From Gemmatimonadota bacterium (GTDB lineage: Bacteria > Gemmatimonadota > Gemmatimonadetes > Gemmatimonadales > GWC2-71-9): a DNA stretch of 64,000 nt. The DNA is taken from NCBI GenBank assembly GCA_003222035.1, contig QHUS01000048.1, forward strand, positions 1-64,000, written 5' to 3'. The notes under the pieces were generated by a model. The model did no database searches, was not told the DNA's origin, and saw only the letters and a list, made by a program, of their open reading frames with translations. The position numbers and the translations under genes were made by a program. Positions 40,615-48,791 of this stretch are shown here, in pieces (positions within the stretch are counted from its first letter, which is position 1; the number at the start of each line of letters is the position of its first letter).

Positions 40615-41468
40615 GCCGCCACGACCTGAGTATCGGTCCACGACTTGAGCGCGGTCGCCGTGAGTATGACAATGCTTCCGAGCAGAGCCAGCGGGCCCGG
40701 GGTCTCGCCGTGCGCGAGCCAGGCCCATACGGGGCTCAGCACCGGCTCGACCAGGAGATATAACGACGCCTCGAGGGCCGGCACGCGCGTGATGGCGCGG
40801 GACAGGAACACGTAGGCCAACCCGAGCTGAAACACGCCCAGATAAATCACGATCAGCCAGTCGACGGACCGGCCCGCCGCGAAGGGAAGCGCGCCCGGCA
40901 GGCACACGAGAAACACCATCAGGTTACCGCACGCCGCCGCGGCCGCGATCGGCCCGTGGTCTGCGCCTCCGTCGCGGGCCAGCCACCGGTAGCCCGTCAC
41001 CGTGAATGCCCAGGCGACCGCGCTGCCGGCCGCGAGCACGTTGCCGAGAAAGGGATCGGGTGCGGTGACGAAGTGTCGCTGTCCCCCGACGAACAAGAGC
41101 GCCAGGCCGACGGCCAGCACGGCCATGAACCGCAAGTCCGCGGCGCGCACGCGCTCGTGCAGGAGCCACGGCGCCAGGGCGACCACGAACAGGGGGTTGG
41201 TCGCCTGGAGGAAGACGGTGTTGGCCGCGGTGGTCAATTTGTTCGCGAACACGAACAGGAGGCCCGCCGCGGCGTACGCCACGCCCACGAGCGGGACACG
41301 CCAGCTCCAGCGGGCCCTGGCTTCGGGGATCAGAGCGAGGATCGCGAGCATCGCGACGAGGGCTCGGACCGCCGCGATCTGCCACGCGCTGAACGCGGAC
41401 CATTTGATGGCCGCGCCGGCCGTCGAGAAACACGCGGCGGCGAGTACCAGCTGCAGGCGAGCCTTCAC
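40611..41468 (-). CDS. EamA/DMT-family permease
   Basis: A 285-residue drug/metabolite transporter with ten predicted helices in two EamA halves. First half AAACFSTAGAAIKWSAFSAWQIAAVRALVA and FANKLTTAANTVFLQATNPLF; second half SAVAWAFTVTGYRWLA, and LEASLYLLVEPVLSPVWAWLAHGE with the conserved Glu/Pro turn. GTG start in an overlap with the solute-binding protein stop. DMT proteins usually export amino acids, nucleosides or related metabolites. Within the EgtD operon it may export an imported or modified amino acid. Confidence 0.9.
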   Translation of the reverse strand: MKARLQLVLAAACFSTAGAAIKWSAFSAWQIAAVRALVAMLAILALIPEARARWSWRVPLVGVAYAAAGLLFVFANKLTTAANTVFLQATNPLFVVALAPWLLHERVRAADLRFMAVLAVGLALLFVGGQRHFVTAPDPFLGNVLAAGSAVAWAFTVTGYRWLARDGGADHGPIAAAAACGNLMVFLVCLPGALPFAAGRSVDWLIVIYLGVFQLGLAYVFLSRAITRVPALEASLYLLVEPVLSPVWAWLAHGETPGPLALLGSIVILTATALKSWTDTQVVAA

Positions 41469-42334
41469 GGGCGCGGCGCCTGGAGCCAGTCCCGCGCGAT
41501 CCCGGCGATGTCCTTGTGCTCGACGTCCGCCAGGGCGTTGAGCCGACGCATCTCGGCGTCCGTGATCCGCCCGGCGAGCAGCGCGAGCGCCGTGCCGACC
41601 TCGGGGTGCGCGTCGAGCACCGCCTGCCGTATCACGGGCGCGGCCTCGTACGGCGGGAAGTAGTGCCGGTCGTCCTCGAGAACAACCAGGTCGAGCGCCT
41701 CGATCTGACCGTCCGTCGAGTTGCCGGCGATCACGTCCACCTTCCCTTCCGCCAGCGCGCGGTACGTCAAACCCAAGTCCATCGCAGTGGGTGGCGCGCT
41801 GAACCGCAGTCCGTACGCGTCCGCCAGGCCGCGGAAGCCGTCGGCCCGCTCCAGAAACTCGTATCCGAATCCCGCCTTCCAGCGGGACGCCACACGCGCC
41901 AGATCGGCGATGCGCGTAAGGCCGTACCGGGTTGCGTCGCGGCGTCGCACCGTGATGGCAAACGTGTTGTTGAAGCCGAACGGCTTGCCCCACGTGAGCC
42001 CGAAGCGCCGGGCATATTCGGCGGTGACCGCGCGCCGCACGCTGTCCGCGTCGTGCGCCGGCGGAAACTTGAGGACCGCCGTGTACGCAGTCCCCGTGTA
42101 CTCGACGTACAGGTCGATCTGACCGGACGTGATCGCGTGATGACACACGAACGTTCCGCCCAGATGGAACCGCCGCTCGACCGGCAGCCCGGTGCGCCGC
42201 TCGATCTGCTGTGCCACGATCTCCCCGAGCAGGTCGGACTCGCTGAAGTTCTTCGAGCCCACAACGATCCGGTCGGCGCGGCCGCACCCCGCGAGCAGCG
42301 TAGCGACGAAGACGATTGACTGTCCGACCGTCAT
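41465..42334 (-). CDS. OpuC/EgtU-type substrate-binding lipoprotein
   Basis: A 289-residue substrate-binding lipoprotein of the glycine betaine/choline class (OpuAC-like). Lipobox FVATLLAGC; binding-domain motifs VVGSKNFSESDLLGEIVAQQIE, LGGTFVCHHAITSGQIDLYVEYTGTAY, VIAGNSTDGQIEALDLVVLEDD, YFPPYEAAPVIR. The same family includes choline/betaine binders and the ergothioneine-specific EgtU. Aromatic-box residues cannot be assigned by eye. It is the fourth gene of the operon and directly precedes the two permease genes, so a complete ABC importer is encoded here. Confidence 0.88.
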   Translation of the reverse strand: MTVGQSIVFVATLLAGCGRADRIVVGSKNFSESDLLGEIVAQQIERRTGLPVERRFHLGGTFVCHHAITSGQIDLYVEYTGTAYTAVLKFPPAHDADSVRRAVTAEYARRFGLTWGKPFGFNNTFAITVRRRDATRYGLTRIADLARVASRWKAGFGYEFLERADGFRGLADAYGLRFSAPPTAMDLGLTYRALAEGKVDVIAGNSTDGQIEALDLVVLEDDRHYFPPYEAAPVIRQAVLDAHPEVGTALALLAGRITDAEMRRLNALADVEHKDIAGIARDWLQAPRP

Positions 42335-42969
42335 TTTCCCCGCCACGCGAGCCTCCGCTCCGCCAACCCCAGCAACCCGTCCGCCGCGAGCGCCATCAGG
42401 GCCGCGGGGAGCGCTCCGGCGAGGATCAGCGTGTCGTCCACAACGGCCACCCCGCGAAAGATGTAGACGCCGAGACCGCCGGCCCCGATCGCGGCCGCGA
42501 TCGTCGCGGTGCCGACGCTGACAACGGTGGCCACCCGCACGCCCGCCAAGATCACGCCGAAGCCGAGCGGCAGCTCGACCTGGGTGAGCAGCTGCCAGTC
42601 GGTCATGCCCATCCCACGCCCCGCCTCGCGCACGGCGGGGTCGACACCCGCGATCCCCGTGTACGTGTTGCGCACGATGGGCAGGAGGGCGTACAGCACG
42701 AGCGCGACGATGGCCGTCGATGCCCCGATCCCGCCGATGAAGGGAAGCGGGATGAGGAAACCGAACAGCGCGAGACTCGGCACGGTCTGGAACACGTTCG
42801 CGAGCCCGAGCACGGGCCGCTGCCATGCAGGCCGCCGCGTGAGCACGATGCCGAGGGGAATGCCGAGCGCGAACGCCAGGAGCGTCGAGACGGCGACCAG
42901 ATACAGGTGCTGGGCCACGAGTCCCAAGACTTCCTGGGCGTTGCGGGCGTAGAAGGCCAAGAGACTCAT
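42331..42969 (-). CDS. OpuC/EgtU-type ABC permease
   Basis: A 212-residue permease with about six helices. LLAFALGIPLGIVLTRRPAWQRPVLGLANVFQTVPSLALF and the EAA loop DPAVREAGRGMGMTDWQLLTQVELPLGFGVILAGVRVATV identify it as a proline/glycine-betaine/choline-type inner membrane subunit. In many relatives the permease is fused to the substrate-binding domain; here the binding protein is separate. The start was put at the ATG giving the normal length. The 28-nt gap between the ATPase gene and this one is the longest inside the operon. Confidence 0.9.
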   Translation of the reverse strand: MSLLAFYARNAQEVLGLVAQHLYLVAVSTLLAFALGIPLGIVLTRRPAWQRPVLGLANVFQTVPSLALFGFLIPLPFIGGIGASTAIVALVLYALLPIVRNTYTGIAGVDPAVREAGRGMGMTDWQLLTQVELPLGFGVILAGVRVATVVSVGTATIAAAIGAGGLGVYIFRGVAVVDDTLILAGALPAALMALAADGLLGLAERRLAWRGK

Positions 42970-42997
42970 GGCCCGCCCCGTGCGCGGCTGAAGCCGC

Positions 42998-43762
42998 TCA
43001 TGCCGCCGCCATGAACGCCCTGCACTCCGGGTGGTCCGAGCGCCGGAACTCCTCCGGCGTCCCGAGGAACGCGAGTCGCCCCTCGTGCATGAGCCCGATG
43101 CGCGTCCCCAGACGCAGGCCCTCGCGCACATCGTGCGTCACGAAGACCATACCCTTGCCGAGTCGACCCTCGAGCGCCTGGAACTCGCGCTGCAGCTCGA
43201 CGCGCGTGATCGGATCGAGCGCCCCGAATGGCTCGTCGAGCAGCAACAGCGGTGGATCAGCGGCGAGCGCGCGCGCGACTCCCACGCGTTGGCGTTGGCC
43301 TCCCGAGAGCTCGTGCGGGTACCGCGCCGCAAACCGCTCCGGGTCGAGACCCACGAGCGTCAGCAACTCGCGCACTCGCGCGGCGATGCGCGGCGGCGGC
43401 CACCCATCGAGCCGCGGAACGAGTCCCACGTTCCGCTCCACCGTGAAGTGCGGGAACAGCCCCACCTCCTGGATCACGTAGCCGATCCGGCGCCGCAGCT
43501 TCGTCGCCGGCACGTCAGCCGCCCGTTCCCCCGCGACGCGCACGTCGCCGGCGGTGGGCTCGAGCAACCGGTTGATCAACTTCAGTGTGGTGGTCTTGCC
43601 CGACCCGCTGCGCCCCAGCAGCACGAGCGTTTCGCCGGCGCCGACCGTGAACGACACGTCCTGCACGAGGGCGCGCCCGCCTTCCCGCCCCCGTCCCCCG
43701 TCCCTCGTCCCCCGTCCCGGCAGCTCGTAACTGAGCCCCCGTACCTCCAGGGCGGCCGTCAC
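42998..43762 (-). CDS. OpuC/EgtU-type ABC ATPase
   Basis: A 254-residue ATPase energising the importer. Walker A LLGRSGSGKTTTLKLIN, Q-loop VIQEVGLFP, signature LSGGQRQRVGVARALA, Walker B PLLLLDEPFGALDP, H-loop FVTHDVREGL. The lid segment LVPRLDGWPPPRI is a usual ABC glycine-betaine-type region; no CBS domains at the C-terminus, unlike ProV. A 15-residue insertion GRGTRDGGRGREGG after LSYELP near residue 16 is encoded by five GGGACGG-like heptamers (35 bp) and is absent from family consensus. It starts in a 4-nt overlap with the EgtD-like stop. Confidence 0.92.
   Translation of the reverse strand: MTAALEVRGLSYELPGRGTRDGGRGREGGRALVQDVSFTVGAGETLVLLGRSGSGKTTTLKLINRLLEPTAGDVRVAGERAADVPATKLRRRIGYVIQEVGLFPHFTVERNVGLVPRLDGWPPPRIAARVRELLTLVGLDPERFAARYPHELSGGQRQRVGVARALAADPPLLLLDEPFGALDPITRVELQREFQALEGRLGKGMVFVTHDVREGLRLGTRIGLMHEGRLAFLGTPEEFRRSDHPECRAFMAAA
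43684..43718. repeat. Heptamer repeat (CCGTCCC family) inside the ABC ATPase gene
   Basis: Five 7-bp units (CCCGCCC, CCGTCCC, CCGTCCC, TCGTCCC, CCGTCCC), the reverse complement family of the array at 12804-12838. The array is translated as a Gly/Arg/Asp linker close to the N-terminus of the ATPase, between two strands where a loop is tolerated. Confidence 0.85.
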
Positions 43763-44697
43763 GTCCGACCGGCCAGAACCATGAGAAACCGCTCGTCATC
43801 GCTCACGCCTTGCCACCGCGCGGCGAGACCTGCATCGGAGAGAATCCGGAGGAACGTATCGGCGGCGTACTTGTACGAGTGGTTCATGGCGACCCGCTCC
43901 CCCCGCTCGACGCGCATGGCTTCGCCGCCCATGGATGCCTCGACGTCGCGGGCGGCGCGGAAATGCTTGGGGATCAGGTGGAGGCCCGGCAGGCGGGGGT
44001 CGTCCGCCGCGCCGAAGACGAGCTCGCCATCCGTATCCCGAATGCCGACGGCGTTGAGCGGCGCCCACGCGAAACGACGGTTCAGCGGATTGTCATAGCC
44101 CGCGACCGTGGTGTCGCCGGCGTAGATCTCCCCGTCGACGAGCAGCACGTCATCCGGCCGGAGCAGTCGCGCGAGCTCCCGCGCCTCCGCAATGGGATCG
44201 AACGCGCCGAGGGTGTTGCCGATCAGCAGGATGAGGCGCCGTGGGGCTTCGGGCTCGGCAGCGAGCGCCGCCAGGTGGGCGGGCTTGGTGAAGTCAGCCT
44301 TGATCCCCTGCGCGGGGAAGCCCGCGCCGAGCGCGCCCGCGCACGCCATCTCGAGCAGCGCCTGGCTCGTGTCGACGGGGACGTAGGACACGCGCAGACC
44401 GCGCTCGCGCAACGCCTCGAGCAGGAGGAGGTCCTTGTCGCCCTGCCCCGCGCCGAGGCTCACCACCTCGAGAGGGGCGACCGGCAACAGCCGCGCGAGA
44501 TCGGCGCGGGCGCGTGCCATGAGAGAGCGTGAGCGCACGAAGTTGCGGTACGCGCCGTCCGAGCAAAGGGCCAGCCACGCGCGCACCGACAGCGGGAACC
44601 AGTAGAAGAATTTCTCGGGGAGACGGCGCTCCCCAAACGCGCGAACAAACTCGTCAGCGAGATCGTTCTCGGTGAGCAGCGCCTGAATCGAGATCAT
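43759..44697 (-). CDS. EgtD-like SAM-dependent methyltransferase
   Basis: A 312-residue protein of the Methyltransf_33/EgtD superfamily. SAM loop VVSLGAGQGDKDLLLLEAL, then VPVDTSQALLEMA, and the acidic loop GNTLGAFDPIAEARELARLL; C-terminal part MNHSYKYAADTFLRILSDAGL resembles the EgtD substrate end with Ser-x-Lys-Tyr. EgtD makes trimethylhistidine for ergothioneine; whether histidine is the substrate here is unknown, and no EgtB, EgtC or EgtE is in the window. It heads a six-gene operon with an OpuC/EgtU-type importer. The start is the ATG after a heptamer array; a further upstream ATG would translate the array. Confidence 0.78.
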   Translation of the reverse strand: MISIQALLTENDLADEFVRAFGERRLPEKFFYWFPLSVRAWLALCSDGAYRNFVRSRSLMARARADLARLLPVAPLEVVSLGAGQGDKDLLLLEALRERGLRVSYVPVDTSQALLEMACAGALGAGFPAQGIKADFTKPAHLAALAAEPEAPRRLILLIGNTLGAFDPIAEARELARLLRPDDVLLVDGEIYAGDTTVAGYDNPLNRRFAWAPLNAVGIRDTDGELVFGAADDPRLPGLHLIPKHFRAARDVEASMGGEAMRVERGERVAMNHSYKYAADTFLRILSDAGLAARWQGVSDDERFLMVLAGRT

Positions 44698-44699
44698 GC

Positions 44700-44727
44700 A
44701 GGGTTGAGAGTTACTGGTTGACGGGTT
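44700..44727. repeat. Heptamer repeat (GGTTGAC family) before the EgtD-like gene
   Basis: Four 7-bp units (AGGGTTG, AGAGTTA, CTGGTTG, ACGGGTT) that begin 2 nt upstream of the EgtD-like ATG and extend into the divergent promoter region; the -35 box proposed for the peptide gene overlaps the last two units. Confidence 0.6.
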
Positions 44728-44746
44728 CGACGGCAACCCGTAGCAT
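44718..44746 (+). promoter_or_regulatory. Candidate sigma-70-type promoter of the peptide cluster
   Basis: TTGACG and TAGCAT separated by exactly 17 nt, about 45 nt upstream of the peptide ATG. The spacer contains GGGTT and AACCC arms that can pair. The -35 lies inside a heptamer array, so the array may have created the promoter. Confidence 0.55.
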
Positions 44747-44791
44747 TCTCCGAACGGCCGTCCTTACTGATTCCTAGTCGAAGGAGGATGT

Positions 44792-44884
44792 ATGCAGATC
44801 GTCGAGACGCAGGAACTCGTCCCCAGCTGTCATCGTCCCGAAATCGTCGAGACGGCGGAGCTGGTACCTACCTGCCACTCCTAA
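44792..44884 (+). CDS. Candidate RiPP precursor peptide with duplicated IVETxELVPxCH core
   Basis: A 30-residue peptide, preceded by AAGGAGG. After Met-Gln it consists of two near-identical copies of IVETxELVPxCH joined by Arg-Pro-Glu, ending CHS. Each copy carries a single Cys followed by His. The second copy differs by Gln to Ala and Ser to Thr, with synonymous changes in several codons, so the repeat is kept at protein level. It is too short for usual gene calling and is overlapped by an out-of-frame ATG four bases earlier that runs on into the next gene. It precedes modification-enzyme genes of the MNIO type, which act on Cys-containing peptides. I see no distinct leader, so the enzyme recognition element may lie in the repeats. 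Confidence 0.78.
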   Translation: MQIVETQELVPSCHRPEIVETAELVPTCHS

Positions 44885-44895
44885 CGGAGCGGTCG

Positions 44896-46020
44896 ATGCG
44901 CCCGGGGGCCCGGATTGACGTCGGGCCCCCTTCGCGTTTTCTGGCGCCCGGACCCCGCCTCGGCTTCGGGGCGTGGGCGATCGGGGGAACCGACTGGGGT
45001 AGAGCCGGTGACGACGCCGATCGCCTCGCGACCGTCTGCTATGCGCTCGAGCGCGGCATCACCTTCTTCGACACGGCGCCCGCCTATGGGGACGGCGCTT
45101 CCGAGACCCTGCTCGGCCGGGCACTGCGCTCGGACCGCGCACGCGTCACCATCGCGACCAAGGTAGGCCCGCGTGACGACCCGAGGCGGTCCCTCGAGGC
45201 GTCGCTGCGGCGCCTGGCGACCGAGTACGTCGACCTGCTCCAGTTACACGAGACGCTGAGCGACTGGGAGCGGCAGCTCGAGCAGCTCGTCACACTGCAG
45301 CATGAAGGAAAGGCGCGGGCGGTCGGCCTGTGCAACGCGACGCATCGCCAGCTCGCGCGGGCGCTCGAGATCGCACCCCTCGCCGCGTACCAGGGTCCCT
45401 ACAACGTGATCGATCGCGACGTGGAGCAGCGAGAGTTGCCGCTGTGCCGGGACCGGGGGCTCGCGTTTCTCGCCTATCGGCCCCTTGCCTCGGGGTTGCT
45501 CACCGGCAAGTACGACGCGCCGCCGGCCTTCCCGGAGAACGACCATCGGCGCAAGCTCTATTGGTTCAAAGGAAGAGAGTTCGAGCGCCGACGGGCCGTG
45601 GTGGCCGGGCTGCGCCCGCTGGCACAGGATCTCGACCTGCCGCTCGCCGCACTCGCGCTCGCGTGGCTGCTGGCGCAGCCCGGCGTTTCCATCGTGCTGG
45701 CGGGTGCCCGCGGCAAGGCGCAGGTTGATGACAATCTCGCTGGCACCCGACCCCTGGCACCTGAAACCGTGTCGCGCATCGACGCCCTCGTCACCGCGAC
45801 ATTCCGGCTCCCACGTGCCACGGAGACGGTCCGGCAGCGGGCCGCGGCCTGGGGGGAGCGCGAGCGGTTCGTGGTCGAGCGGCTGGATGGACGGGCGAGC
45901 GCCGAGGCGGTGGCGGCCGCCTGGACCGACCGTGGCGGGGTGCCAATGGTTGCCGCGCAGGTCAAGGTGTTTTGTGACCAACTCGCCGAGCAGGGGTTAG
46001 TAGTAACAGACACCGCGTAA
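44896..46020 (+). CDS. Aldo-keto reductase fused to a PqqD-like (RRE) domain
   Basis: A 374-residue protein. Residues 15-300 are an aldo-keto reductase barrel: FFDTAPAYGDGASETLLGRAL with the catalytic Asp and Tyr, IATKVGPRDD with the Lys, LLQLHETLSDW with the His, and a C-terminal NADPH segment (SIVLAGARGKAQVDDNL). Residues about 319-374 (FVVERLDGRASAEAVAAAW, VFCDQLAEQGLVV) resemble PqqD-type RiPP recognition elements, a short winged-helix that binds precursor peptides. The insertion GTRPLAPETV is encoded by four TGGCACC-type heptamers. The ATG lies 11 nt after the peptide stop behind an ACGGAGCGG. It may reduce the modified peptide. Confidence 0.85.
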   Translation: MRPGARIDVGPPSRFLAPGPRLGFGAWAIGGTDWGRAGDDADRLATVCYALERGITFFDTAPAYGDGASETLLGRALRSDRARVTIATKVGPRDDPRRSLEASLRRLATEYVDLLQLHETLSDWERQLEQLVTLQHEGKARAVGLCNATHRQLARALEIAPLAAYQGPYNVIDRDVEQRELPLCRDRGLAFLAYRPLASGLLTGKYDAPPAFPENDHRRKLYWFKGREFERRRAVVAGLRPLAQDLDLPLAALALAWLLAQPGVSIVLAGARGKAQVDDNLAGTRPLAPETVSRIDALVTATFRLPRATETVRQRAAAWGERERFVVERLDGRASAEAVAAAWTDRGGVPMVAAQVKVFCDQLAEQGLVVTDTA

Positions 46021-46030
46021 CGGACGACGG

Positions 46031-46819
46031 ATGACGCAGGTCACGATCGGGGCGTTCTACAACCCCCACCTGGGCAAGGAATTGGCGCAGGCGGATGGCA
46101 TCGACCATCTCGCAATGGCCGACCCGCCGGCGACTGCCGATCCGTGGTGGCCAGCCATCCGCGAGCGTTACACGCTGCTGCTGCACGACTATTTGGGGCA
46201 GCTCTCCGAGCCGCTCGACGAGCGCTCGATACAGCGCGCTCGCGGGCTGGCGGAGCTGTACCGCACGCCCTGGGTGGCCGAGCACTTCCAGTGCCTGCAC
46301 ACCGAGGACGGTCGCTACAACCTCAACTACGTCTTCCCGCCGCTCTATACCGAGGAGTTTCTCGACCGCTTTGTCCGCAACGCGAACGCGCTCAAGGGCC
46401 GCCTCGACCAGCCGCTCGTTATGGAGAACATCCCGGGCTTCTTCGACGTCAAGGCAAGCCAGATGCTCGAGCCGGTGTGGCTGCGTCGGTTCTTCGAAGC
46501 GACGGGCGTCGGCTTCCTACTCGACCTGCCGCACGTCTGGCTGGAGGCGCACTACCACGATATTTCGCCGCGGCGCTGGCTCGTAGAGTTCCCCCTCGAT
46601 CACGTGGTGGAGCTACACGTCGCGGGTGTCGAGCACGACCGGGATCTCGACGGTCCCTGGATCGCGCCCGCCGAGCCGTCGGATGAAATGCTCGACTTCG
46701 CCGCGTATGCGGTGACCCGGTGTCCGCGGGCGCGCGCGGTCACGTTCGACGCGTTCTCCCCCTCGTTGACCGCCGAGGTCCTCCTCCGAAGCGTCGAGCG
46801 GATTCGAGGAGCGCTGTGA
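46031..46819 (+). CDS. Divergent DUF692 (MNIO) family protein
   Basis: A 262-residue TIM-barrel protein resembling DUF692 multinuclear non-heme iron oxidative enzymes, which modify cysteine-containing peptides (methanobactin MbnB, TglH and others). Matching segments in order: LLLHDYLGQLSEPLDERSI (HG-like His52), VAEHFQCLH (Glu84, His85), FPPLYTEEFLDRFVRN, PLVMENIPGFF (Glu132, Asn133), GFLLDLPHVWLEAHYHD (in place of LLDVNNVYV), HVVELHVAGVEHD (His196) and a closing AVTFDAFSP. The LLDVNN asparagine is replaced by Pro and the IDTH aspartate-histidine pair by DGPW, so the iron site may hold fewer metals. It follows the reductase by 10 nt and its stop overlaps the next gene. Confidence 0.82.
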   Translation: MTQVTIGAFYNPHLGKELAQADGIDHLAMADPPATADPWWPAIRERYTLLLHDYLGQLSEPLDERSIQRARGLAELYRTPWVAEHFQCLHTEDGRYNLNYVFPPLYTEEFLDRFVRNANALKGRLDQPLVMENIPGFFDVKASQMLEPVWLRRFFEATGVGFLLDLPHVWLEAHYHDISPRRWLVEFPLDHVVELHVAGVEHDRDLDGPWIAPAEPSDEMLDFAAYAVTRCPRARAVTFDAFSPSLTAEVLLRSVERIRGAL

Positions 46820-48015
46820 AAGCGATCGCCTTGCTGGTACTACTGCTGCAGGTAGAGGTTGTAGTGCCCGCGGGCACGCGCATTCCGATCCGCTTCGTAC
46901 AACGCATCACGAGCGGAAGAGACACGGTCGGCAGCGAGGTGCTGGTGCAAACGGTGGGGGCGGTGGTGCAGGATTCCTGCACGATCATCCCGCCGTACCT
47001 GCGCGCGAAGGGGCGGATCGTTCTCTCAAAAGGCGGAGGGCGGTTCGGCCGCCATGGCCAGCTGGGGCTGGAATTCGACTCGCTGGAGATCCGTCGCGGG
47101 CGCTGGGTCCCCATCTCAGGTGTCCTCGACACGCTCGAGTACGCCCATCCGGGGACGCTCACGGATTCCGGGTTCGTGTCCAGCGGAAAGATGTCGGTCG
47201 GCGGCGTCGGCAAGAAGCTCGTGCCCGCGGGCGTTGCGGTGGCGGCGGACTTGGCTGCTGTCCCGGTGGCCGTGATCGGGGGCGTTTCGCTCGCGCGTCG
47301 TGGGCCCCCAATGCGCATTTTCGTAGGGGAGCTCGGCGGCATCCGGCTCACCGAACCGCTCGTCTGGGCGAGCACGGAGGCGTGCCAGCCCGTGGCTCCG
47401 CACGCGGAGACGGCGGTGTTACCGGACCTGCCAACCTTCATGCCCCGCTCGGAGAACCGTACCGGGACTGTGCTGGGCGACCCCTTCAACGTGCTGTTGC
47501 TCGGCACGGCCGGGGAGATCGACAGCGCGTTCCGGGCCGCTGGCTGGCTCCCTGCCGACAAGCGATCGGTGCTCACGGTGACGCGTGAGATCACCGCCGC
47601 GATCGCGAGCCGACCAGCCAACACGGCGCCCGTGAGCACGCAATACTTCGATGGGCGACCGCAGGAGCTGGCGTACGAGCTCCCCGGACCGAACGTCCGG
47701 ATTCGTCATCACATCCGGATCTGGCAGCTGGACAGCCTGTCCCACGTCTGGGTCGGCGCGGCGAACAAGGACGTTGGCGTGATCTTCAAGCCCTGGGAAC
47801 CCGAGGCCACTCACCGCATCGAGCCGCACGTCGATTGGGAGCGGGACCGGATCGTGCACGACCTCGAGGCCAGCGGCTGTGCCGACTTGCTGGACTACAA
47901 GAGCCTCCCCGGCGCCATGACCGAGGGACGCAATGTTTCCGGTCAGAAGCTCTTCTCGGACGGGCGAACCGCTGTGGTGCGCCTGCGATCGTGTAACGAC
48001 CCGGAAACCCCGTGA
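46816..48015 (+). CDS. Secreted protein with LssY-like C-terminal domain
   Basis: A 399-residue exported protein from a GTG in a GTGA overlap. The N-terminal 20 residues (KAIALLVLLLQVEVVVPAG) form a signal or membrane anchor. Residues 20-130 form a beta-rich domain (TSGRDTVGSEVLVQTVGAVVQ, EFDSLEIRRGRWVPISGVL) with a helical membrane-proximal hairpin around 150-175. Residues about 230-385 match LssY_C: NVLLLGTAGEIDSAFRAAGW, ELAYELPGPNVRIRHHIRIWQL, VWVGAANKDVGVIFKP and EPHVDWERDRIVHDLE. Its role in the peptide pathway is unknown; it could process or export the product. Confidence 0.75.
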   Translation: MKAIALLVLLLQVEVVVPAGTRIPIRFVQRITSGRDTVGSEVLVQTVGAVVQDSCTIIPPYLRAKGRIVLSKGGGRFGRHGQLGLEFDSLEIRRGRWVPISGVLDTLEYAHPGTLTDSGFVSSGKMSVGGVGKKLVPAGVAVAADLAAVPVAVIGGVSLARRGPPMRIFVGELGGIRLTEPLVWASTEACQPVAPHAETAVLPDLPTFMPRSENRTGTVLGDPFNVLLLGTAGEIDSAFRAAGWLPADKRSVLTVTREITAAIASRPANTAPVSTQYFDGRPQELAYELPGPNVRIRHHIRIWQLDSLSHVWVGAANKDVGVIFKPWEPEATHRIEPHVDWERDRIVHDLEASGCADLLDYKSLPGAMTEGRNVSGQKLFSDGRTAVVRLRSCNDPETP

Positions 48016-48791
48016 CCGGCGGCCGGACCGACCGGGCCTTGCAGGACGACGTGATCCGCGCCCTGTCCGACGCCCGGTACCGCGCGTCGGCTGAATGGCG
48101 CCGCCGTGCGCTCGCGGACCCCGACCGGGTGGAGCGGTACGCGCGCTTTCTGGCGCGACACTTCTACTACGAGCGTGCCGTCCACTTCTTCAAGTACTCG
48201 CGCGCGCTCGCGCGGGTGACCGGCCGTCGACCCGAAGCCGCTCTCACGAGCTCGGCGTTCGACGCTCTGCTCCCCACCCTCGTGCTCGGCAGCCGGGAGA
48301 CCGCTGCCGCGGTCGCACGAATCGTCGTTGCGTACCTCGGGGCCGGACCCGCGGTGGTGCCGTATCTGCCAGATCTGCTGCGCTACGAGGAAGCGATGAT
48401 GGTGGTGGAAGCGGGGTCCCGGGTGTGGCGGGACGGAGGGAATGGGGACGACGGAAGAGGGAGGGGCGTGGCTCCGCGGACAGTCGAGGGTACGGTGCTA
48501 TTGGAGCTGGCGTACGACCTTCCCGCGGTCCTGCCCAAACTGCTGCAGCCCTGGATGGACGTACCGCCGGCCCCCGAGCGGCCTATTAAGCTGCTCGTCG
48601 CACGATCGCCACACGGGCGGGTCGCCGTGGCCCGCAGCGACGAGAGCGTGGCGGCGGTGATCGAGCTTGCGGACGGCAAGCGGACGCTCCAGGACCTCGC
48701 CACCGATGCCCGACTGGACCTCCCCACACTCGAAGCGACGGTCAAGAACCTCGTCGAGTTGGGTGCCGTCCGGTTCTCGACCGGAAGTTGA
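48012..48791 (+). CDS. DUF692-partner-like protein with C-terminal winged helix
   Basis: A 259-residue protein from a GTG overlap. Residues 1-140 are helical (RYARFLARHFYYERAVHFFKY, VAYLGAGPAVVPYLPDLLRYEEAMMVVEAG), reminiscent of the DUF2063-like partners (such as MbnC/TglI type) that bind the precursor for MNIO enzymes. Residues 175-259 contain a winged-helix/PqqD-like domain (VAVARSDESVAAVIELADGKRTLQDLATDARLD, LPTLEATVKNLVELGAV). Between them WRDGGNGDDGRGRG is translated from a GGGACGG-type repeat at about 48428-48470. Together with the preceding DUF692 protein it probably forms the modifying complex. The identification rests on pattern and context, not on a clear signature. Confidence 0.68.
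   Translation: MTGGRTDRALQDDVIRALSDARYRASAEWRRRALADPDRVERYARFLARHFYYERAVHFFKYSRALARVTGRRPEAALTSSAFDALLPTLVLGSRETAAAVARIVVAYLGAGPAVVPYLPDLLRYEEAMMVVEAGSRVWRDGGNGDDGRGRGVAPRTVEGTVLLELAYDLPAVLPKLLQPWMDVPPAPERPIKLLVARSPHGRVAVARSDESVAAVIELADGKRTLQDLATDARLDLPTLEATVKNLVELGAVRFSTGS

Follow-up and report, generated by a model that had tools for sequence, protein, structure and literature searches.

The DNA analysed here, called the window throughout, is a stretch of 64,000 nucleotides from the Gemmatimonadota contig QHUS01000048.1 (assembly GCA_003222035.1). It carries a gene cluster built around a 30-residue peptide with two Cys-His units. The peptide gene is followed head to tail by genes for an aldo-keto reductase (AKR), an MNIO (DUF692) enzyme, an LssY_C protein and an MNIO partner protein, and is preceded by divergently transcribed genes for an EgtD-like S-adenosylmethionine (SAM) methyltransferase and a quaternary-amine ABC importer (Table 1). 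Shared by uncultured bacteria of three phyla, the gene set seems to indicate that a sulfur or selenium compound is made in a way not yet described, and the most striking new fact is a probable exchange of cysteine for selenocysteine (Sec) at the proposed reaction site, together with the EgtD-like enzyme.

Results

The spacing between the genes for peptide, AKR, MNIO, LssY_C and partner is 11, 10, -4 and -4 nt, in agreement with an earlier reading of this DNA (the original prediction), which described head-to-tail genes with gaps or overlaps of at most 11 nt. The Shine-Dalgarno sequence and promoter-like boxes that it placed before the short gene were also located, as AAGGAGG and TTGACG-17-TAGCAT, the latter being the single promoter-like site within positions 44600-45000 (mean in shuffles, 0.0). 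Because the promoter motif recurs in Gemmatimonadota upstream regions at the rate given in Table 1, a dedicated regulator of the peptide promoter is possible. A dyad, ACGGGTT-7-AACCCGT, lies between the -35 and -10 boxes (window 44718-44746). A hairpin comparable to the one directly 3' of the peptide gene follows the peptide in 24 folded Gemmatimonadota loci, a count made with no shuffle control and including two orphan copies without AKR, and it probably sets a high peptide-to-enzyme ratio.

Table 1 Features of the cluster in the window, by position
Feature	Position	Strand	Remarks
Substrate-binding protein (SBP), OsmF/OpuC/EgtU quaternary-amine family	41465..42340	-	
ABC transporter permease, choline/betaine type	42331..43131	-	ORF bounds; true start probably internal
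ABC transporter ATPase, betaine/choline (ProV) type	42998..43762	-	
EgtD-like SAM methyltransferase	43759..44736	-	divergently transcribed
Sigma-70-like promoter of peptide gene	44718..44746	+	motif TTGACGGGT..GGCAACCC in 19/24 Gemmatimonadota upstream regions
Shine-Dalgarno-like AAGGAGG	44781-44787	+	sequence, ahead of peptide ORF
Precursor peptide, 30 aa, two 12-residue units, IVETQELVPSCH + IVETAELVPTCH	44792..44884	+	
Aldo-keto reductase (AKR), sub-threshold PqqD-like tail	44896..46020	+	accessory; seen in Gemmatimonadota only
GC-rich hairpin directly 3' of peptide ORF	44904..44930	+	RNA folding
MNIO (DUF692, PF05114) enzyme, separate monophyletic subfamily, 262 aa	46031..46819	+	
LssY_C protein	46816..48015	+	not core; of 18 holders, window's genus only
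MNIO partner protein, TglI/NGO1945-like fold, ApyI-like by sequence (sub-cut-off)	48012..48791	+	

The short open reading frame (ORF; 44792-44884, plus strand) encodes MQIVETQELVPSCHRPEIVETAELVPTCHS. Its units follow, broadly, the pattern [IV]VExx[EN]LxPx[C/U]H, of which the conserved IVExxELxP part is probably a recognition sequence; a separate leader is absent from the peptides, and by eye the 30-residue peptide has neither a hydrophobic stretch nor a signal peptide. Nitrospirota peptides and those of the f1 Gemmatimonadota have two units each, that of genome G228 has four, that of the Acidobacteriota locus L056 three, and those of L151 and L152, also Acidobacteriota, one. The C-termini seen are CHS, CHA, CHQ, CHR, CH or UH, and the His after Cys or Sec is invariant across all peptides seen; the pattern search demanded that His, and the loci reached through MNIO alone carried no such demand. 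Profile searches of the peptides in Pfam and NCBIfam gave nothing credible.

Across 23 Gemmatimonadota loci, which are not 23 different genomes and which leave aside the four-unit peptide of G228 and the contig-edge locus L036, 20 distinct DNA sequences of the 30-residue ORF encode 12 distinct peptides. Variable sites at codon positions 1/2/3 number 8/5/20 of 30 codons, and dN/dS is 0.21 (188 pairs). This third-position variation, the low dN/dS and the presence of the peptide in all 18 genomes that hold the MNIO gene in the window's phylum (the holders, below) confirm, at the level of sequence evolution, that the short ORF is a real gene and more than chance. The peptide as a by-product of an overlapping 410-aa frame was rejected on codon-position variation and dN/dS. 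The duplicated Cys-His peptide at the centre of the original prediction is thus real, with two 12-residue units and a dN/dS of 0.21, and peptide ORFs beside homologous MNIO genes, on which that prediction had been made to depend, are present in 18/18 Gemmatimonadota holders.

Orphan copies of the peptide gene lie at L054:6451-6540 and L057:7709-7798, with no MNIO gene in the stretch examined. Each is followed by a GC hairpin of the same type and then by a similar downstream gene, which may be DM13-like; the L054 copy is in the same metagenome-assembled genome (MAG) as the full cluster L052, judging by accession prefix, and follows a gene that by eye is disulfide-reductase-like.

A short ORF that precedes biosynthetic genes and is directly followed by a hairpin in 24 folded loci could also be a regulatory leader peptide with an attenuator that senses Cys/His (or Sec) supply, and not a substrate. 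We regard this as very improbable, given that residues besides Cys and His are conserved under the same dN/dS, that the units vary from one to four, that the L054 and L057 copies stand without the operon in the stretch examined, and that MNIO with a partner of the RiPP recognition element (RRE) type implies a peptide substrate, as is established for the family (RiPP, ribosomally synthesized and post-translationally modified peptide).

The 262-residue protein matches PF05114 above the curated cut-off (E 2.3e-26; 93.1 bits against 25), which upholds the DUF692 identity on which the original prediction had staked its case. Its residues H52, H85, E132, D165 and H196, presumably the iron ligands, align with identical residues of TglH and are invariant in 15 rows. 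The best NCBIfam match is ApyH (2e-28; 99.1 of 400 bits), and the BufB profile scores 6e-24 (84.7 of 310 bits), both short of the equivalog cut-off. A branch with 100/100 support splits twelve in-group MNIOs from 33 others, in a tree that samples part of the in-group, is rooted at the midpoint only and contains two outgroup rows with very long branches. The same subfamily is set apart by a gap in E-value (Acidobacteriota search, 1e-116 to 2e-29; Nitrospirota search, 1e-130 to 3e-23); the search model includes rows of genomes G404 and G405 and excludes the Acidobacteriota genomes G784 and G801. The original prediction also named a partner-like protein, and the predicted structure of this protein (AlphaFold, pLDDT 89.5) has a TglI/NGO1945-like fold. 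Its three top PDB neighbours are 8hi7 (3.3e-5), 8hci (1.1e-4) and 3dee (1.1e-3), with TM 0.55-0.56 by query length, and correspond to NGO1945 and to a chain of 268-269 residues in the TglHI complex, whose length led us to take it as TglI. By sequence its best NCBIfam match is ApyI (1e-5), far below cut-off.

A search for MNIO in 395 genomes of the window's phylum gave 26 matches at E<=1e-10, of which 18 are strong orthologues (67-86% identity, the window excepted) and the other 8 weak matches. The 18 holders are 17 members of one family and G228 from another family of the same order. Which genes travel together was counted by tblastn of 15 window genes on 20 stretches and on 30 loci found by the peptide pattern (24 in Gemmatimonadetes, three in Nitrospirae, one in Acidobacteria and two false positives; L078 and L080 were rejected as simple repeats). 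Peptide, MNIO and an EgtD-like gene beside the peptide are present in all 18 holders, the partner in 17 (the contig of G261 ends before it) and the ABC genes in 16. For G270 the methyltransferase was counted from contig C119 (L048), which is from the same genome as L036, whose contig starts inside the peptide.

Beyond this phylum, MNIO and peptide occur together at 6/6 loci, three in Nitrospirota (L062, L069 and L073) and three in Acidobacteriota (L056, L151 and L152); genomes G784 and G801 were drawn from the phylum of L056's genome (Acidobacteria). The EgtD-like gene is on the contig at five of the six, about 1.7 kb from the peptide in L056, and the contig of L151 ends inside the ATPase gene, before that place. 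ABC genes are also found at five, one of which has ATPase and permease only, up to the contig end. At L152 the genes for EgtD-like enzyme, ATPase, permease, SBP, peptide, MNIO and partner lie on one strand. The MNIO subfamily is rare, found in 1/245 genomes in the Nitrospirota search (the centre itself) and in 3/297 in the Acidobacteriota search (one being the centre). The core reaches upstream into divergent genes that were outside the set of the original prediction, namely the EgtD-like gene (18/18) and the ABC genes (16/18), both recurring in other phyla. Judged from sequence, peptide, MNIO, partner, EgtD-like enzyme and, mostly, importer very likely form one functional system.

The distribution of the AKR and LssY_C genes led us to reject both as core genes, although the original prediction had them as parts of the pathway. 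The identity of the LssY_C protein stands (profile match at 2.4e-39), and so does that of the AKR (PF00248, 1e-60), whose PqqD-like tail falls below the curated cut-off (17.6 against 23.4 bits) and reaches E<=0.1 in 7/14 aligned orthologues. A full-length AKR is found in 16/18 Gemmatimonadota holders, with none in G036 and a 105-aa remnant in G228, and LssY_C in 7/18, all in the window's genus; neither gave a match at E<=1 in the stretches examined of the six loci from other phyla. The AKR may be an add-on in Gemmatimonadota that, for example, reduces an oxidised intermediate. In G036 (L046:7635-8348), where the AKR is gone, the MNIO frame opens with residues like the first fourteen of the AKR, so loss of the AKR spared the hairpin region. 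In this MAG the MNIO frame is broken near its end and was counted as an orthologue with a frameshift. In G228 (L047:2155-2469) the AKR is an open 105-aa frame with the N-terminus joined to the last residues, resembling an internal deletion.

Two Acidobacteriota peptides have an in-frame UGA that aligns exactly with the Cys of the homologous peptides. Both consist of a single unit, VVEKANLVPT-UGA-His-UAG at L152 and VVERENLVPT-UGA-His-UAG at L151, and the 25 nt AACCTCGTCCCGACCTGACACTAGT across the UGA are identical in the two, while their MNIO genes share 542/790 aligned nt with a longest exact run of 13. A hairpin with an 8-bp stem, with a compensatory change in the last pair, places its loop (GUU or GUA) 25 nt after the UGA. 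The 27-nt hairpins fold at -15.6 and -13.7 kcal/mol, with 0/200 shuffles as stable for each, in a test that was not blind, since these pieces were delimited after inspection. Both fit a model of the bacterial selenocysteine insertion sequence (bSECIS) set out in PMC13188914: a loop of 3-9 nt, a stem of 4-16 bp, G in the first two loop positions, a spacing of 16-37 nt and a minimum free energy <= -7.5. SelB (383 and 380 bits; cut-off 242) and tRNA-Sec (73 and 76 bits; cut-off 47) are present in both genomes (G801 and G784). At L152 a terminator-like hairpin and T run lie between the peptide and the MNIO gene.

We judge it likely from these features that UGA encodes selenocysteine in place of the reactive Cys. 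Several results weigh on the other side. When all 45 nt 3' of the UGA are folded, L152 favours another fold (z -2.0) and L151 behaves like shuffles (z 0.07); an Rfam scan of L151 and L152 found no SECIS, its one match being below the gathering score; tRNA-Sec passes in 5 and SelB in 2 of 14 control genomes, which makes tRNA-Sec the weaker control; and there are only two Sec cases, MNIO being found in 0/175 further relatives of G801 (only in G801 and G784 of 177). UGA is a stop codon, the Sec reading is drawn from sequence and in L152 the whole 45 nt prefer a structure other than the SECIS-like hairpin, so the peptides could end at an ordinary stop and be truncated or decayed. That is quite unlikely, since two diverged genomes agree in all 25 nt spanning the UGA and retain CAC-TAG after it, their MNIO frames are open and accompanied by partner genes, and both encode SelB and tRNA-Sec. 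Since the Cys-to-UGA swap falls exactly at that position, Cys as the reactive residue is supported, and with it the proposal of the original prediction that the Cys-His pair is the modification site. Four Gemmatimonadota genomes (G000, G282, G036 and G228) have SelB and tRNA-Sec above cut-off, yet their peptides use Cys.

The BufB profile match and the chelating look of the CH repeats allow for a different product, a modified-peptide metallophore in which x-Cys would become a thiooxazole or oxazolone/thioamide and units and His would chelate copper in the manner of bufferins/captophorins or methanobactin, with the EgtD-like gene and the transporter serving another role. We consider this unlikely: no signal peptide is seen by eye, unlike most such precursors (PMC12452194), the EgtD-like gene accompanies MNIO in three phyla, on the same strand in one contig, and the Sec type has a single unit, which would make a poor multidentate chelator.

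The methyltransferase (43759-44736) is assigned by Pfam to Methyltransf_33, and the top 15 structural matches of its AlphaFold model (pLDDT 94) are all solved EgtD (TM 0.77-0.86), while the EgtD equivalog cut-off is missed (69.5 of 290.9 bits). In EgtD, His is bound by Tyr206 and Ser284 (carboxylate), Asn166 (alpha-amine) and Glu282 (imidazole side), as described in PMC8593015. These positions were placed via a profile alignment to same-phylum EgtD orthologues (18% identity) and a motif, in an alignment of 19 rows; L032, L035, L037, L048, L059, L072, L074 and others were left out, and L152 was checked separately. The Y206 and S284 positions are kept in 19/19 rows, and likewise in L152. The substrate probably carries a carboxylate but is not plain histidine, which is unlikely because N166 and E282 are replaced.

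EgtB (E<=1e-50) occurs in 0/18 holders against 144/377 other genomes (Fisher p 2.7e-4), and EgtD above cut-off in 0/18 against 160/377 (Fisher p 8.7e-5). In the window's own genome, EgtB-profile matches reach at most 84.5 bits against a cut-off of 360, and the EgtD profile finds the cluster gene only; EgtD above cut-off is also absent from all six genomes to which L054, L056, L057, L062, L069 and L073 belong. Genome G014 has a weak EgtD-like match and no MNIO match.

The SBP falls within the OpuC/EgtU family, a match at family level only. In its family (10 rows) the motif GGTFxCH has an invariant Cys and a nearly invariant His, unlike the solved relatives compared. In G266 the ABC genes lie on the opposite side of the cluster.

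Discussion

The sequence evidence supports an MNIO-type, RiPP-like pathway acting on a Cys-His peptide. As a tentative reading, to which we give slightly less than even confidence, MNIO and partner oxidise Cys or Sec beside His on the peptide, and a sulfur or selenium compound is released for methylation by the EgtD-like enzyme and for import. The peptide would be made in excess, from its own promoter and with a hairpin or terminator ahead of the enzymes; partner and MNIO would bind the peptide at its conserved IVExxELxP segment; using iron and O2, MNIO would then oxidise the Cys or Sec that precedes the invariant His and might shift S or Se onto the imidazole. Proteolysis could then free a small S/Se amino-acid derivative, which the EgtD-like enzyme would methylate to a betaine that the ABC system imports or recycles. 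That the product is a small betaine rather than a modified peptide comes close to an even call, falling a little on the lower side, and a thio- or selenohistidine betaine, the boldest option, is a putative and somewhat doubtful one. A peptide-templated ribosomal route to such betaines, replacing the EgtB or selenoneine routes, is correspondingly speculative, and we hold it to be rather improbable.

Several observations count against such a pathway. Product, protease and expression are all putative. The N166 position of the EgtD-like enzyme is Ala or Gly and the E282 position Asn, Ser or Gly in 19/19 rows, with L152 in agreement, and histidine trimethylation of the EgtD type cannot be assumed from such a sequence. 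The lack of EgtB and EgtD is confounded by ancestry, as 17/18 holders belong to one family, in which 20 others have EgtB. By its scores the SBP is not specifically EgtU-like: that of the window scores EgtUC (177.6 bits) as it does a natural choline/betaine binder (176.7), with engineered sensors up to 207, and that of L152 prefers choline/betaine binders over EgtUC (174 against 145). ABC genes are missing from the 25-kb contig of G255, from the 0.75 kb that the 4.5-kb contig of G228 has beyond its EgtD-like gene, and from the surroundings of L056 (8,000 of 8,616 bases examined).

The replaced imidazole- and amine-side residues would also suit chemistry of the ApyH/TglH type, in which the C-terminal part gives a small amino acid without the His imidazole that is then methylated. 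ApyH (2e-28) for the MNIO and ApyI (1e-5) for the partner lead the NCBIfam matches, though far short of the cut-offs, and pearlins show that small molecules can be released from peptide scaffolds (PMC11002830). Against this stand the invariance of the His after Cys/Sec in all peptides seen and the existence of internal units, so that not every unit requires a free C-terminus, and this alternative seems to us improbable.

Three fields that do not come together in the literature searched meet in the proposed pathway: the peptide chemistry of MNIOs, the decoding of selenocysteine, and betaine methyltransferases of the EgtD type with transport of quaternary amines. The peptide-templated route, if true, would to our knowledge be the first case of an MNIO pathway whose selenium substrate is genetically encoded. 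The natural Cys/Sec swap at the predicted reaction site offers a direct test of MNIO chemistry and suggests an undescribed selenium metabolite from uncultured bacteria. In the literature searched, which holds few subscription journals and, for two of the searches, takes in part of the papers found, no paper connects MNIO enzymes with ergothioneine, with selenoneine or with this gene set, and searches linking MNIO with AKR, Gemmatimonadetes or selenium were without result; within that literature the statement of the original prediction that no pathway with this gene set has been described holds. The main text of PMC12452194, as far as available, makes no mention of methyltransferase, ergothioneine, aldo, PqqD, Gemmatimonad or Nitrospir.

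Several known systems share parts of this one. The route to selenoneine is SenABC. Ergothioneine and selenoneine, with EgtU, resemble it in the EgtD-fold methyltransferase, the quaternary-amine SBP family and the pairing of S or Se with His; here, however, S/Se and His are peptide-borne, the EgtD cut-off is missed, two key residues are replaced and the window's own genome has no EgtB above cut-off. Bufferins and captophorins likewise involve MNIO acting on Cys peptides, but most precursors of MNIO RiPPs carry a signal peptide of the Sec-dependent type, and the commonest partners are DUF2063 proteins (PMC12452194). Aminopyruvatide is close in that ApyH and ApyI are the best NCBIfam matches of MNIO and partner and in having no visible signal peptide, yet the scores lie far from the cut-offs and the peptide here ends in Cys-His-x rather than Asp; its cluster has a P450 and a B12-dependent radical SAM enzyme (PMC11002830), neither of which is among the genes seen here. 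The thio(seleno)oxazole RiPPs (SbtM), cited in PMC13188914 and PMC12668002, share a UGA-bearing precursor with a downstream Sec insertion element (PMC11002830), but use a radical SAM enzyme where MNIO is found here, and none is among the seven cluster genes of L152. The pearlin/3-thiaglutamate system (TglA, TglHI) has an MNIO with a TglI-like partner as well, and by analogy we propose that the peptide may be a scaffold for a small sulfur-containing product; unlike in that system, Cys or Sec is encoded here rather than appended, His follows it, and an EgtD-like enzyme and an importer accompany the cluster.

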